A DNA stretch of 64,000 nt from an archaeon (GTDB lineage Archaea; Nanobdellota; Nanobdellia; Woesearchaeales; GW2011-AR9), in contig JAHFQW010000001.1 in the NCBI GenBank assembly GCA_023259115.1, positions 17,929 through 81,928 of the forward strand. Direction: 5' to 3'. This document shows positions 5,176 to 58,463 of the stretch, piece by piece. Under the pieces are notes generated by a model. The model had not been told where the DNA came from. It saw only the letters and a program-made list of their open reading frames with translations, and searched no databases. The number at the start of each line of letters is the position of its first letter. Within the stretch, counting starts at the first letter, position 1. The position numbers were made by a program, and so were the translations under genes.

Positions 5176-5225
5176 CATTAAATGTAACGAATACCACAAA
5201 AACGTATCAAAGAAAATAAAAATAA

Positions 5226-5335
5226 GCCCCTGGCGAGATTTGAACTCGCGACCTCGTCCTCATTGTCTTTTCATTAAAAACATCTTTCCAACAAAACATA
5301 CCAAGGACGCGCTATAGCCACTAAGCCACAGGGGC
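5226..5335 (-). tRNA. tRNA-Thr(GGT) with about 38-nt intron after position 37
   Basis: Acceptor GCCCCTG/CAGGGGC, D arm GCTTAGTGGCTATAGC, anticodon stem CGTCC/GGACG with TT-GGT-A, intron about 5261-5298, T arm GAGTTCAAATCTC, discriminator U. Confidence 0.85.
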
Positions 5336-5422: not shown

Positions 5423-5547
5423 TGCCGGGGAAGGGATTTGAACCCTCGAACCCACTAAGAGACAGGATATCTTCTCTTCTGCACAAACAGAAGTGTCTTT
5501 CTGGGTACTTAAGTCCTGCGCATTTGGCCAAGCTTTGCTACCCCGGC
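5423..5547 (-). tRNA. tRNA-Leu(TAA) with about 39-nt intron after position 37
   Basis: Acceptor GCCGGGG/CCCCGGC, anticodon stem CAGGA/TCCTG with CT-TAA-G, intron about 5469-5507, long variable arm, T arm AGGGTTCAAATCCCT. Confidence 0.85.
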
Positions 5548-15059: not shown

Positions 15060-15200
15060 TATAGATACGGCAGTAATTTATCGAACATATAAAAGCCGTA
15101 TCTATATGCGGGGAAACCGCCGTTTCCTGCATGCCAGAAATCGTAGTTTCTGTGCATAGGGCGGCACTAACTATTTGTTCGATTAATTAGTGCCGCACGT
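15060..15200. repeat. Nested-hairpin module 1
   Basis: ATAGATACGGC/GCCGTATCTAT (15061-15071/15095-15105), GGAAAC/GTTTCC (15112-15117/15122-15127), CAGAAA/TTTCTG (15135-15140/15147-15152), GCGGCACTAA/TTAGTGCCGC (15161-15170/15187-15196). Confidence 0.75.
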
Positions 15201-15330
15201 ATACCAAAATCTAAAGCAAATTATTTAAAGAACATTTCTTAAGTTAGAAAGATGTACATCCATAATCAAAAAATTAAGAAATGGCATGGTTACATTGGCA
15301 AAGAAGAAACAGATAAAACCATGGATGAAT

Positions 15331-15545
15331 TATACTAAAAGCACGAAATATTTGTATACACAAAATGTGAAGAATATCACATTTGTGCACCAATGAAATC
15401 GTCGTTTCATTGTGTGTTTGTTCGTGCTTTTATACACAAAGCAAAGAAACGACTTTGCTTGTGCACAAATGGAATCGTTATTCCATTTTGTGTATACAAA
15501 GGCACTAACTATTTCGTACGATTAATTAGTGCCTTTGGTATACGA
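15331..15545. repeat. Nested-hairpin module 2
   Basis: AAAAGCACGAA/TTCGTGCTTTT (15337-15347/15421-15431) encloses AAATGTGA/TCACATTT and CAATGAAA/TTTCATTG; TATACACAAA/TTTGTGTATA (15431-15440/15487-15496) encloses AAGCAAAG/CTTTGCTT and AAATGGAAT/ATTCCATTT; then CAAAGGCACTAA/TTAGTGCCTTTG (15497-15508/15526-15537). Confidence 0.75.
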
Positions 15546-18419: not shown

Positions 18420-19721
18420 ATGGCAAAAACAAAAGAACACATTAACTTAGTATTTATTGGTCACGTTGATCACGGTAAATCAACCACCGTTGGGCGATTG
18501 TTATTCGATACCGGAAATATTGACGAACAAGCCATGCGAAAATTAAGAGAGAAAGCCGAACAACTAGGCAAGAAAGGCTTCGAATTTGCATTTGTCATGG
18601 ACAACTTAAAAGAAGAGCAAGAACGTGGAGTAACCATTGACCTCTCCCACAAGCGCTTCGATACAGACAAATATTACTTCACAATTATTGACGCACCTGG
18701 GCACAAGGATTTCATTAAAAACATGATTACTGGCGCATCCCAAGCAGATGCCGCCGTCATTGTTGTTGCCGCAAACGACGGTGTCAACGCTCAAACTATC
18801 GAGCATCTCCGTCTGAGCAAAATCTTCGGTGTTGGTCAATTATTAGTTGCCGTCAACAAAATGGATATGCCCGGTGTTGACTTCGCAGAAAAACGCTTCA
18901 ATGAAGTTGTCGAAGACGTTAAAAAACACGCAGCCCAAGCCGGCTGGAAAGTGGACAAACTACGATTCCTCCCCATCGCATCATTGCCTGGTGAAAATAT
19001 CACTAAAAAATGTGCAAAAATGCCTTGGTGGAGTGGAGACACATTATTAGAAGGAATTAACAAATTCGAAGTACCTCCAAAACCAACCAACTTACCACTA
19101 CGTATGCCCATTCAAGATGTATACAATATCACCGGAATTGGTGTAGTCCCCGTTGGACGTATTGAAACAGGTATCATGAAAGCAGGAGACAAAATTATGA
19201 TCGTTCCTGGACGTGAAGGAAAAGGTGTTCCTGGCGAGATTAAATCTATTGAAATGCATCACGAAAACGTCGCTCAAGCAGAACCTGGAGACAACGTTGG
19301 TATCAACGTCCGTGGTTTAGGTAAAAAAGACATCGCTCGTGGAGACGTTCTCGGACATGCTGACAACGTACCAACTGTTGCCACTGAATTCACCGCGCAA
19401 ATTGTGGTCATGAACCATCCTAGTGTTGTAACCGTTGGATACACACCAGTATTCCACATCCACACCGCGCAAGTTGCCTGTCAGATCATCGAAATCTTGA
19501 AAAAGATCAACCCTGCAACCGGTCAAGAAATCTCTGAAAACAAAGACATCTTGAAAAACGGTGACGCTGCTATTGTCAAATTAAAACCAATGCAGCCGCT
19601 TGTTATCGAGAAAGGTACTGGTGACAATGCCATTCCCCAACTATCTCGATTCGCTATCCGCGATTCCGGAACAACCGTAGGTGCTGGAATGTGTATGGAT
19701 GTTGTCAAAAAAGTATTATAG
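18420..19721 (+). CDS. tuf: Translation elongation factor 1-alpha
   Basis: [41 protein letters not shown]; full-length aEF-1A. Confidence 0.97.
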
Positions 19722-19808
19722 TAAATGTGTGAAATAATCGAATATTAACTTACACATTTACTTATTAGTAATGGTGAACAAATATTCGAAAATTATTCAC
19801 CATTACTA
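19720..19808. repeat. Twin-hairpin element A
   Basis: AGTAAATGTGT (19720-19730)/ACACATTTACT (19752-19762), linker TAT, TAGTAATGGTGAA (19766-19778)/TTCACCATTACTA (19796-19808). Confidence 0.8.
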
Positions 19809-19840
19809 TATAATTTTTTTTTATTTGATTTATTTAAAAA

Positions 19841-20297: not shown

Positions 20298-20345
20298 TAT
20301 AGAGGAGTTTGACAAGTTTTATAGGGTTATTCAAACCGCTCTATA
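20298..20345 (+). repeat. 3'-end hairpin, TATAGAG/GTTTGA family
   Basis: TATAGAG-ga-GTTTGA (20298-20312) pairs TCAAAC-cg-CTCTATA (20331-20345). Confidence 0.65.
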
Positions 20346-24132: not shown

Positions 24133-24160
24133 CCAAAATACACCTATTTTATAAGAATAT

Positions 24161-24250
24161 AGTAAACTACGTAGGATTTCGCACATGAATCATCGCAGTT
24201 TACTTATTAGATAACTGCGCCAAATGTGTTATAAACCGCGCAGTTATCTA
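24161..24250. repeat. Twin-hairpin element B
   Basis: AGTAAACTaCG/CGcAGTTTACT, linker TAT, TAGATAACTGCGC/GCGCAGTTATCTA; 87/90 identical to element C by eye. Confidence 0.85.
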
Positions 24251-24261
24251 TATCTTACATT

Positions 24262-25038
24262 TTATCGCTTCAAAAACTTCTCCACCCCTTCACGAAACGA
24301 CGGTGCCGCAACTGCCACTGCTTGCAATTCTTCCTCCAAACGCAACTGCTCATCAAAACGTTCAATAGTTCTACTCCTCATCGCTTTTTTAACCAAATTC
24401 AGAACCAGTGGCGAACGTCCTGCTAACTCTTGTGCTATCTGATAGGTCTCTCTTGCCAACTCATCAACCGTAGCATAGACTCCTGTAAGTAACCCCTCTG
24501 CTAACGCATCAGATGCTTTATATGTTTTTGCACGTAGTACAATCTCTAAAGCTTTCTTCTCACCCACCAATGCTGGAATCAAATACGTCCCCCCACACGC
24601 CGGAATTAACCCTCTCTCCACAAATGTAAACGCCAAACGACTCTGCTCAACCGCATACGTCAAATCACAAGCTAACGCAAACATCAACCCCGCACCAGAT
24701 GCCGAGCCATTCATTGCGCACACCACTGGTTTGGCACAAGAATAAATCTCTTTTGCAATCGGATCAAACAATGAACGATGCAATCGCACAATAGTATCTG
24801 TATCACTGAGATCCACACTTTTCAGATCCAATCCCCCGCAGAAAACCCCACCAGAACCCGTCAAATAAATAACCCGAACCTCATCAGACATACGTGCATC
24901 TTGAACAGCCTCATACAACAATCTCGCCGCAGGTTCATCCAACGTATTCGCCGCAGGTCTATTGAGCACAATTTTTGCAATGTGTTCATCCACACTATAT
25001 TGAATCATATCAGCCATTTCAATTTCCTCTCCATTCAA
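24262..25038 (-). CDS. Enoyl-CoA hydratase/isomerase family protein
   Basis: HIAKIVLNRPAANTLD, GGVFCGGLDLKSV, NGSASGAGLMFALACDLTYA. Confidence 0.9.
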   Translation of the reverse strand: MNGEEIEMADMIQYSVDEHIAKIVLNRPAANTLDEPAARLLYEAVQDARMSDEVRVIYLTGSGGVFCGGLDLKSVDLSDTDTIVRLHRSLFDPIAKEIYSCAKPVVCAMNGSASGAGLMFALACDLTYAVEQSRLAFTFVERGLIPACGGTYLIPALVGEKKALEIVLRAKTYKASDALAEGLLTGVYATVDELARETYQIAQELAGRSPLVLNLVKKAMRSRTIERFDEQLRLEEELQAVAVAAPSFREGVEKFLKR

Positions 25039-25757
25039 TTTCTTCCAAATACTTTTCTTGCCCCTCTCATAAGTTCCGCCGCAAGTGTCGTAATTTCACG
25101 TTCAACTAATTCTTGCTTTGTTGGCGGCACACCAGAATAAGATATACATCGTGCACTAGATGTCAACAGACTCACAAACCCATTCAAAATATATTTTGCT
25201 CCTTCTTGCACTTTTTCTCCTTCATGCATAAAAATCGGATGCACCGGAAACACCGCAAGTGTTCCTTGTTCTGGTCTAATCCGTAGCACTTCACAACGAG
25301 CACTGCGAAACACCGTATCCCCTCCTCTAAAATTATCATTCAGATACAAAATATACGCAAAACGCCTAGACAGTGCCAGAACCGAAGAATCATCCGAATG
25401 AATAGGAAAGCCATCACCCACATTATATTTTTTCATTCGAGGATCTAGTGTATAAATCCCTGCTTTCACTTTTTCCAAAAAAGGTTCATACGCAATATGC
25501 TCATCCAAATACTCATCAATCTGCGCACGTAATTTTCGATAGACAATTCCTAATAATTTCTCCCCCTGCATCTTCTCATCAGTCATAATAATCTGTTCAA
25601 ATGTAATAGCAGAACCATTCAACTGCTCTTGCGAATTTCGCTTAGGAGTCGCCTCAAAATAATCAATCACTCGTGAACACAAATCAGGAGTTAAAACACT
25701 CTGATAGAGTGCCATCCCATAGGGCAATCCCGAACCAATACGTGTAATATCTCCCAT
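25035..25757 (-). CDS. 2OG-Fe(II) oxygenase (prolyl 4-hydroxylase-like)
   Basis: FPIHSDDSS...RFAYILYLNDNFRGGDTVF...AVFPVHPIFMHEGEKVQEGAKYILNGFV; start trimmed to MGDITRIG. Confidence 0.8.
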   Translation of the reverse strand: MGDITRIGSGLPYGMALYQSVLTPDLCSRVIDYFEATPKRNSQEQLNGSAITFEQIIMTDEKMQGEKLLGIVYRKLRAQIDEYLDEHIAYEPFLEKVKAGIYTLDPRMKKYNVGDGFPIHSDDSSVLALSRRFAYILYLNDNFRGGDTVFRSARCEVLRIRPEQGTLAVFPVHPIFMHEGEKVQEGAKYILNGFVSLLTSSARCISYSGVPPTKQELVEREITTLAAELMRGARKVFGRN

Positions 25758-25799
25758 AATAAAAAACAACCCAAGAAACCTCCTCAATAATAATGATAT

Positions 25800-25889
25800 A
25801 GTAAACTGCGTAGGATGTCGCACATGAATCATCGCAGTTTACTTATTAGATAACTGCGCCAAATATGTTATAAACCGCGCAGTTATCTA
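25800..25889. repeat. Twin-hairpin element C
   Basis: AGTAAACTGCG (25800-25810)/CGCAGTTTACT (25833-25843), TAT, TAGATAACTGCGC (25847-25859)/GCGCAGTTATCTA (25877-25889). Confidence 0.85.
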
Positions 25890-26006
25890 TAACAATGAAT
25901 TTACCTCAATTTTATTTAAACCTTTCCCACTAAATTATGTCAAAAACGTACACATACCACTTATTTCACAACCTTTTTAAACAACCACCCACCCTCATAA
26001 ATTAAC

Positions 26007-31835: not shown

Positions 31836-32684
31836 ATGAATCCTACTAACGCTTTAGTAGCCTTTGAAGGAAAGAACATTCGTAGATTATGGTATAACGA
31901 GAAATGGCACTTTTCAGTTATAGATGTCGTGGAGGTATTAACAGATAGTTCTATTCCTAAAAGATACTGGTCTGATTTAAAAACTAAGCTTTTAGAAGAA
32001 GGATTTGAACCGTACGATAAAATCGTACAGTTGAAAATGCTGGCAGAAGATGGTAAATTAAGAGAAACAGATTGTGCCAATACAGAAAACATGCTAAGGG
32101 TAGTCCAATCCATCCCCTCAAAGAAAGCAGAACCATTTAAACGCTGGCTGGCTCAAGTTGGCTATGAAAGAATTAAGGAAATTGAAAACCCAGAACTTGC
32201 TCAAGATAGGGTAAAAGAATATTATGAACTAAAAGGATATCCAAAAGAATGGATTGATAAACGTTTAAGAGGAATAGCTATCAGGCAAGAACTAACTGAT
32301 GAATGGAAAAGTAGAGGTGTTGAAGAACAGAAAGATTTTTCTATTCTTACAAATGAAATAAGCAAAGCCACTTTTGGCAAAACAGTGGGGGAATATAAGC
32401 AGTTTAAAGGATTGAAAAGACCAAATCAGAACCTACGAGATCACATGACTGATTGGGAACTTATTTTAAATATGGTTGGAGAAAAAGCTACTACCGAAAT
32501 CACTATTGCCAAAGATGCTAAAAGATTCTCAAAACTTAAACAAACAGCTAAAGAAGGTGGAAATATCGCTAAAAATACACGTAAAGAATTAGAGCAAAAG
32601 ATTGGGAAATCAATCATCTCTAATGAGAACTACCTCCACCTAGAAAAAGAGAAGAAGAAAAATGAGTTAGAGTCTGACAAATGA
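31836..32684 (+). CDS. Bro-N/DinD-like phage antirepressor-type protein
   Basis: FEGKNIRRLWYNEKWHFSVIDVVEVLTDSSIPKRYWSDLKTKL...QSIPSKKAEPFKRWLAQVGYERI. Confidence 0.8.
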   Translation: MNPTNALVAFEGKNIRRLWYNEKWHFSVIDVVEVLTDSSIPKRYWSDLKTKLLEEGFEPYDKIVQLKMLAEDGKLRETDCANTENMLRVVQSIPSKKAEPFKRWLAQVGYERIKEIENPELAQDRVKEYYELKGYPKEWIDKRLRGIAIRQELTDEWKSRGVEEQKDFSILTNEISKATFGKTVGEYKQFKGLKRPNQNLRDHMTDWELILNMVGEKATTEITIAKDAKRFSKLKQTAKEGGNIAKNTRKELEQKIGKSIISNENYLHLEKEKKKNELESDK

Positions 32685-37218: not shown

Positions 37219-37283
37219 GCTCATAAGCAAAAAATATCAGAAATCACCCTGTCCCAAAGCATAACACCTAGAAAAAAATAATT

Positions 37284-37311
37284 TATAGAGGACTTTGAAT
37301 AACGCTCTATA
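37284..37311 (-). repeat. 3'-end hairpin, TATAGAG family (short)
   Basis: TATAGAG-GACTTTGAATAACG-CTCTATA adjoining the stop of the methyltransferase gene. Confidence 0.5.
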
Positions 37312-42553: not shown

Positions 42554-42743
42554 AAAGGTTTTAATAGTTGTTTTTATTATACCTTTTAGATATGTATTAA
42601 TATATTATTGGGTCTATAATATTGGTATTGTGGGGTTTGAATAATAGAATAATAGATTGAATATAGGGTTATTCAAAGTCTTTTATTAATATTCATTTGA
42701 TACAGTTGGTTATGGGGATAAAATGAGTGATGAGGTATATACA

Positions 42744-57852: not shown

Positions 57853-57936
57853 GGTTTATTAATCAATTCGTTTATTGTTCTATTAAGAGTACTTTTATGA
57901 TTTTAATTGTTATGAAATCTAAATATTACGGATCTA

Positions 57937-57978
57937 TAGAGAAGTTTGATTAATTCGTATTTTAGTCAAACTTTTCTA
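57937..57978. repeat. Long-loop hairpin, GTTTGA family
   Basis: TAGAGAAGTTTGA (57937-57949)/TCAAACTTTTCTA (57966-57978), one G-U. Confidence 0.6.
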
Positions 57979-58010
57979 AGAATTAAACAAATAAATAGGG
58001 GGGATTTAAT

Positions 58011-58463
58011 ATGACAGAATATTGTGCAGTAAGTAAATGGTTAGCGAAGCATGCAGAGTGGGCACCAGTTTTTTTACGTTTGGGTGTAGGAATTGTGTTT
58101 TTGGTGCATGGATTGGGTAAGTTATTGGCGATAGGTCCTGCACCTTTGGGCTTGGCGGGAACAGCAGGATTTCTTGCAAGTATTGGTGTTCCAGCAGCAG
58201 GCTTCTTTGCATGGGTTGTGGCATTAGTTGAGACGCTTGGCGGGCTCGCATTGATTTTAGGGTTGTTTGTACGCTATGCGGCGTTGTTGCTGGCAGTGGT
58301 TATGCTTGTGGCGATTGTGACAGTCCATTGGAAGAACGGGTTTATTTTACCTGCCGGATATGAGTATGCTCTGACGTTGCTTGCGGGTAGTTTGACGTTG
58401 ATGTTTAGCGGTGCGGGTAGTAAGTGGAATTTAGAGCACAAGTTTTGTAAGAAAGAGTGTTAA
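58011..58463 (+). CDS. DoxX-family membrane protein
   Basis: APVFLRLGVGIVFLVHGLGKLLAIGP...ALVETLGGLALILGLFVRYAALLLAVVMLVAI. Confidence 0.85.
   Translation: MTEYCAVSKWLAKHAEWAPVFLRLGVGIVFLVHGLGKLLAIGPAPLGLAGTAGFLASIGVPAAGFFAWVVALVETLGGLALILGLFVRYAALLLAVVMLVAIVTVHWKNGFILPAGYEYALTLLAGSLTLMFSGAGSKWNLEHKFCKKEC

Follow-up and report, generated by a model that had tools for sequence, protein, structure and literature searches.

The IS630 insertion sequences are relatives of mariner and belong with it to the IS630-Tc1-mariner group, and MITEs of the IS630 type are known in bacteria. For this type of transposon, work on ISY100 established that the transposase binds the terminal repeats, is the sole protein needed and inserts only at TA (PMC2170065). 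In pneumococcus, the 107-bp element RUP has ends like those of IS630-Spn1 and was proposed to be moved in trans (PMC3049150). Pneumococcal repeats also insert into one another, and MITEs have been listed for archaea such as Sulfolobus, Halobacterium and Haloquadratum (PMC10969869). No report of MITEs in Woesearchaeales was found when a collection of papers was searched by text.

Here, we analysed a stretch of 64,000 nucleotides from an archaeon of the Woesearchaeales, referred to as the window, which carries two near-identical twin-hairpin elements, B and C, on either side of a gene pair, and a third element, A, elsewhere. The three elements are, with high probability, non-autonomous MITEs of the IS630 branch of the IS630-Tc1-mariner group that are presumably mobilised in trans, the gene pair being a bystander.

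Twin-hairpin elements in the window

A direct-repeat scan placed B and C in register at 24151-24252 and 25790-25891, with a spacing of 1639 and 95% identity. Over the 94-nt unit the two are 97% identical in the same orientation, which agrees with the 87 of 90 matching positions given in the earlier note. The exact ends of the elements, TATAG...CTATA, lie at 24158-24252 for B and at 25797-25891 for C, 95 bp in each case. Both elements fold into two hairpins beyond what is expected from their composition (z = -4.5 for B and -6.3 for C), and none of 200 dinucleotide shuffles folded equally well. The description of each element as a pair of hairpins thereby stands, whereas the linker TAT described along with it is merely the middle of the conserved TTATTA that joins the closing G-C pairs of the two hairpins. 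The stem of hairpin 1 contains one mismatch in B and is perfect in C. Copies follow the framework TATA-[G..C]-TTATTA-[G..C]-TATA; the right half of the element resembles the reverse complement of the left half, and the covariance model described below matches both strands. The elements and their probable relatives in the window are the following:

24158-24252, plus strand: element B, complete twin-hairpin MITE, counted with the TA on either side; ends match those of the IS630 copy L201
24162-24203, plus strand: hairpin 1 of B, left IS630-type end paired with an inner inverted copy, one stem mismatch
24204-24209, plus strand: linker TTATTA of B, the same linker as in 46 of 46 clean copies
24210-24248, plus strand: hairpin 2 of B, right IS630-type end paired with an inner inverted copy
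25797-25891, plus strand: element C, complete twin-hairpin MITE of 95 bp, again counted with the TA on either side
25801-25842, plus strand: hairpin 1 of C
25843-25848, plus strand: linker TTATTA of C
25849-25887, plus strand: hairpin 2 of C
19717-19810, plus strand: element A, twin-hairpin MITE of 94 bp from a second sequence group with inner box TAATNNTCG; 62 bits, ends match those of the IS630 copy L212
15060-15106, plus strand: TATAG...CTATA element with one hairpin, probably related, on the left border of a nested-palindrome cluster
20298-20345, plus strand: single-hairpin TATAG...CTATA element, probable relative
57935-58013, minus strand: covariance-model match of low score (29.8 bits), probably a diverged relative

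Element A sits 3' of the EF-1A gene. The window contains five such TATAG...CTATA elements, compared with 0-1 in each of 20 sequences simulated with its dinucleotide composition.

Copies in the host genome and its relatives

The genome to which the window belongs (G000; 1.57 Mb, 54 contigs, 96% completeness) was searched and sampled around the matches. A DNA search returned 34 matches, comprising full-length B and C, partial copies and related families that keep the common framework with different stems. A covariance model built from nine diverse copies, the E-values of which are rough, matched 61 distinct places of this genome at E<=1e-4. When the survey was extended to the order, with at most 11 candidates scored per genome, 109 of 353 genomes were matched at E<=0.001. 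Of 279 genomes drawn evenly from the phylum, 51 had matches at E<=1e-4, including seven in the same class but outside the order. The search of the remaining genome and of relatives that the earlier note had proposed thus turned up abundant copies, and the scenario of no further copies anywhere fails.

Genome G079 carries at least 15 copies. Among named public genomes, the exact right-hairpin pattern occurred only in Woesearchaeota RIFCSPHIGHO2_02_FULL_39_9, in seven contigs. The regular-expression skeleton TATA-G..C-[T/A]TATTA-G..C-TATA retrieved 46 copies from the fetched loci, all of them with the linker TTATTA; other AT-rich linkers occur in other families. The length of the element is 93-96 bp in most families and reaches about 120 bp in those with longer loops. 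Carriage by viruses was considered and rejected, as neither transposase peptide patterns nor the linker 20-mer were present in viral contigs.

Two loci of the host genome (L009 and L010) hold 50-bp single-hairpin versions in which the left outer arm is joined to the right outer arm, TATAGTAAACTGCG...ACGCAGTTATCTATA. These are perhaps deletions between the shared CGCAGTT arms.

Insertion at TA and duplication of the target

Genome G205 contains about twenty copies according to the DNA search, at least 11 of which are 93 bp long and identical letter for letter within unrelated flanks. In eleven of these copies the outer TATA is always preceded by T and always followed by A or G. A nested copy in locus L003 lies inside the linker of another copy, with the junctions TTAT-TA|TAG...CTA|TA-GATCA in comparison to the intact linker TTATTAGAT; the target is therefore TA, and the insertion added one TA. 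TATAG..CTATA is found in all clean copies. At the site of one G205 copy, genome G197 is empty, the site having diverged to GG in place of TA. The junction evidence consists of this one empty site and the one nested junction read.

Clean copies are intergenic in 43 of 46 cases, in loci of which open reading frames occupy ~79% by a crude call. The elements are non-coding, short, multicopy and dispersed, and they insert at TA and duplicate it, as expected of MITEs of the IS630 (Tc1/mariner) family. Of the possibilities raised in the earlier note, that of a non-autonomous mobile element is thus strongly supported by the dispersed copies, the duplicated TA, the nested insertion, the empty site and the ends matching IS630.

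Ends shared with intact IS630 insertion sequences

As the elements are hairpins, the Y1 transposase of IS200/IS605 and REP systems was examined first. Since the insertion target is TA, the IS630 transposase domain DDE_3 was examined as well. Intact IS630-family (Tc1/mariner) insertion sequences of ~1.1 kb in relatives were found to carry the ends of the elements. The copy L201, from a genome of the same family as the window (G032), measures 1097 bp, has the terminal repeats TATAGATAACTGCG..CGCAGTTATCTATA and encodes a transposase of 337 aa with helix-turn-helix domains and a DDE_3 match (E=1e-37), in which D171, D250 and E287 are candidate catalytic residues. The left end of the window element, TATAGTAAACTGCGTAGGATGTCGCACATGAAT, aligns with the left end of L201, TATAGATAACTGCGTAGGATACAGCACATAAAT, and the right end with the right end. 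Beyond TATAG, at positions 6-30, element C agrees with L201 at 19 of 25 positions on the left and 18 of 25 on the right, and 0 of 2000 shuffles were as good.

This correspondence extends to other families, as left-left and right-right matches were obtained for several element families against five IS630 copies. The AATTCTG families of the host genome have ends matching L200, L202 and L247, element A matches L212 at both ends, and the G205 elements match L212 on the right, with a weaker match on the left. The outer ends are present in the intact IS630s and the inner arms that form the hairpins are absent from them, so that simple internal deletion alone fails to explain the hairpins.

A search for DDE_3 and L201-like sequences detected no IS630 transposase or fragment in the 54 contigs of the host genome (96% completeness), and an IS630 transposase was also not found in G205 or G079. 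The cognate transposase is not strictly defining for such elements, because MITEs can outlive their partner or the insertion sequence may be unassembled; the IS630 partner of the elements in the host genome may accordingly be missing or unassembled. Across the compared genomes, which are largely fragmentary assemblies, IS630 presence is weakly associated with the elements (odds ratio 2.2, p=0.035; kinship ignored).

In another genome of the order, the short hairpins TATTGTCCAC...GTGGACAATA flank a Fic-like gene (L231, 373-1376). This pair was tried as IS630 terminal repeats and rejected, as it consists of two short hairpins on either side of that gene and is not the IS630 of the locus.

Pairing of the stems and the inner box

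When families were delimited at 80% arm identity, ten were obtained, in which 9.9 of 10 positions of a stem are paired, compared with 6.2 of 10 when arms are swapped between families. With the selection filter left off, both stems were still paired at 9-10 of 10 positions in 36 of 39 skeleton matches, and the pairing is therefore not created by the filter; the remaining three appear to begin at a wrong upstream TATAG. Within the second sequence group, pairwise identity is 0.37-0.39 at positions 10-14, where pairing is complete, and 0.52-0.84 at positions 15-26, the stem top and loop around TAATTTTCGNA.

We read the inner box as a predicted transposase binding site, and the pairing of the outer part as maintained either for its own sake or through the way the elements are copied. 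Possibly, although we are inclined to doubt it, the hairpins themselves serve a function at the transposon end, such that a folded end (cruciform or single-stranded) is selected beyond its sequence. If true, this would be a Tc1/mariner-type system with selection on the folded end and not only on the end sequence.

Complementarity between the two loops reaches 9-10 bases in element A, G079 and L020. Kissing loops were rejected as a general feature, being not above chance in C and several others and absent in G205 by eye. That the loops look alike may be due simply to a single binding box being present in two inverted copies.

The gene pair between B and C and alternative explanations

The two genes between B and C are both judged to be bystanders:

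24262-25023, minus strand: enoyl-CoA hydratase/isomerase gene (PF00378, E=7e-47)
25035-25784, minus strand: 2OG-Fe(II) oxygenase gene, start codon uncertain (PF13640, E=2.8e-12)

The hydratase gene has B on its 3' side, and the oxygenase gene has C on its 5' side, where the gap is divergent. Among 60 genomes including that of the window, the oxygenase was found in one of the 59 relatives searched, where no adjacent hydratase was present within the 3.7 kb read. For this reason the bracketing looks incidental and the pair looks like a bystander rather than a conserved cassette, and neither the locus nor the 59 relatives searched for the oxygenase gave any sign that the elements carry or control the two genes. 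One could still imagine a composite unit, bounded by B and C, that carried both genes along. The left part of B and the right part of C are oriented as the two ends of one transposon, a composite transposon of 1.7 kb with these outer ends is geometrically possible, and the oxygenase is rare in relatives. However, the one relative with the oxygenase lacks the neighbouring hydratase, a second copy of the unit was not seen, and TA flanks both sides of B as well as both sides of C, as for independent insertions. We consider such a composite highly improbable.

Two further explanations concern the elements themselves. In a REPIN-like scheme, a Y1 (RAYT/TnpA) transposase would mobilise an inverted pair of REP hairpins in the form of single-stranded DNA, and the elements do resemble REPINs in being inverted hairpin pairs, and inverted palindromes, that are mostly intergenic and occur in many copies. 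Moreover, elements and Y1_Tnp show a weak positive association across the 353 genomes (49/60/76/168, odds ratio 1.8, p=0.016; kinship ignored), similar in strength to that of IS630. Against this, no Y1 transposase was found in the host genome or in G079, a twin hairpin lies near only 2 of 29 Y1 loci, one of the two being weak, and TA duplication and IS630-matching ends are unexpected for Y1 elements. Y1/HUH transposase was rejected as the engine on these grounds, and a REPIN-like origin appears very unlikely. The strong covarying hairpins and their position near gene starts and ends could be those of a conserved structured RNA or of a regulatory element common to the adjoining genes, as the earlier note had also proposed. 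Yet the gaps that hold copies may be tandem, convergent or divergent and adjoin unrelated genes, identical copies have unrelated flanks, and the duplicated TA and the ends common to a transposon point elsewhere. No Rfam family was matched at the elements, the window giving only two tRNAs above the gathering score. This explanation, too, has very little probability, whereas a local regulatory side effect of the elements on neighbouring genes is possible. We therefore retain the assignment to non-autonomous IS630-type MITEs.

Further observations in the window

The region 15060-15545 is a dense cluster of nested palindromes, e.g., AAAAGCACGAA...TTCGTGCTTTT enclosing hairpins and GGCACTAA...TTAGTGCC occurring twice, which probably represents several small repeat families inserted into one another. 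Partial inverted copies of the repeat ATAGAGGACTTTGAATAA lie at 37281-37310 and 42661-42690. Elsewhere in the genome, TATAG...CTATA twin hairpins with a ATAGAGGACTTTGAATAA stem occur (L093, 2575-2670), and these may match an IS630 with the ends TATAGAGACTTGC (L209).

On the minus strand, two tRNA genes are unusually long, at 5225-5335 (111 bases) and 5423-5547 (125 bases), which suggests introns. A protein with a BRO-N domain is encoded at 31836-32684 (PF02498, E=1.3e-8); BRO-N proteins are often found in viruses and mobile elements.

Discussion

In the mechanism we propose, each MITE consists of the left and right IS630 ends brought within ~95 bp of each other and flanked by the duplicated TA. 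The transposase of an intact IS630 would recognise the terminal TAG and the inner box at each end, excise the element and reinsert it at a TA. Within each MITE end, the outer portion also pairs with a short inner sequence that repeats it in inverted form, and the two hairpins so formed each carry an inner box in the loop. Both the action of the transposase in trans and the selection for pairing are what we infer.

Roughly one in three of the genomes searched within the order carries members of the superfamily. These keep one shape, two hairpins of usually 93-96 bp in total, while the stems differ and the ends follow those of the matching IS630s. They thus offer a natural test case for how MITEs track transposases and for whether the folded end matters. 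They also account for part of the repeated intergenic hairpin DNA of these small genomes, DNA that one might otherwise mistake for regulatory RNA.

Compared with ISY100 and the IS630-Tc1-mariner group, the system has in common the TA target and its duplication, terminal repeats bound by helix-turn-helix domains and a DDE transposase, features shared by the IS630s described here (PMC2170065). In contrast, the window elements encode no protein and possess extra inner arms that are absent from intact IS630s. With REPINs, or REP doublets, they share the character of small non-autonomous inverted palindrome pairs that are mostly intergenic; REPINs are, however, tied to Y1 (RAYT), whereas the host genome here has no Y1 and both the ends and the TA target fit IS630 (PMC3116915). 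Mitochondrial double-hairpin elements are likewise described as two adjacent hairpins forming a small mobile unit, a likeness of shape only. By this comparison, RUP is the nearest described element: it is also ~100 bp long, AT-rich and present in many copies with IS630-like terminal repeats (PMC3049150). Unlike RUP, the present elements are archaeal and apparently unrelated in sequence, each of their ends is a complete hairpin, and the stems vary between families. It is this folding of each end on an inverted copy of itself that is the unusual part of these IS630-type MITEs.
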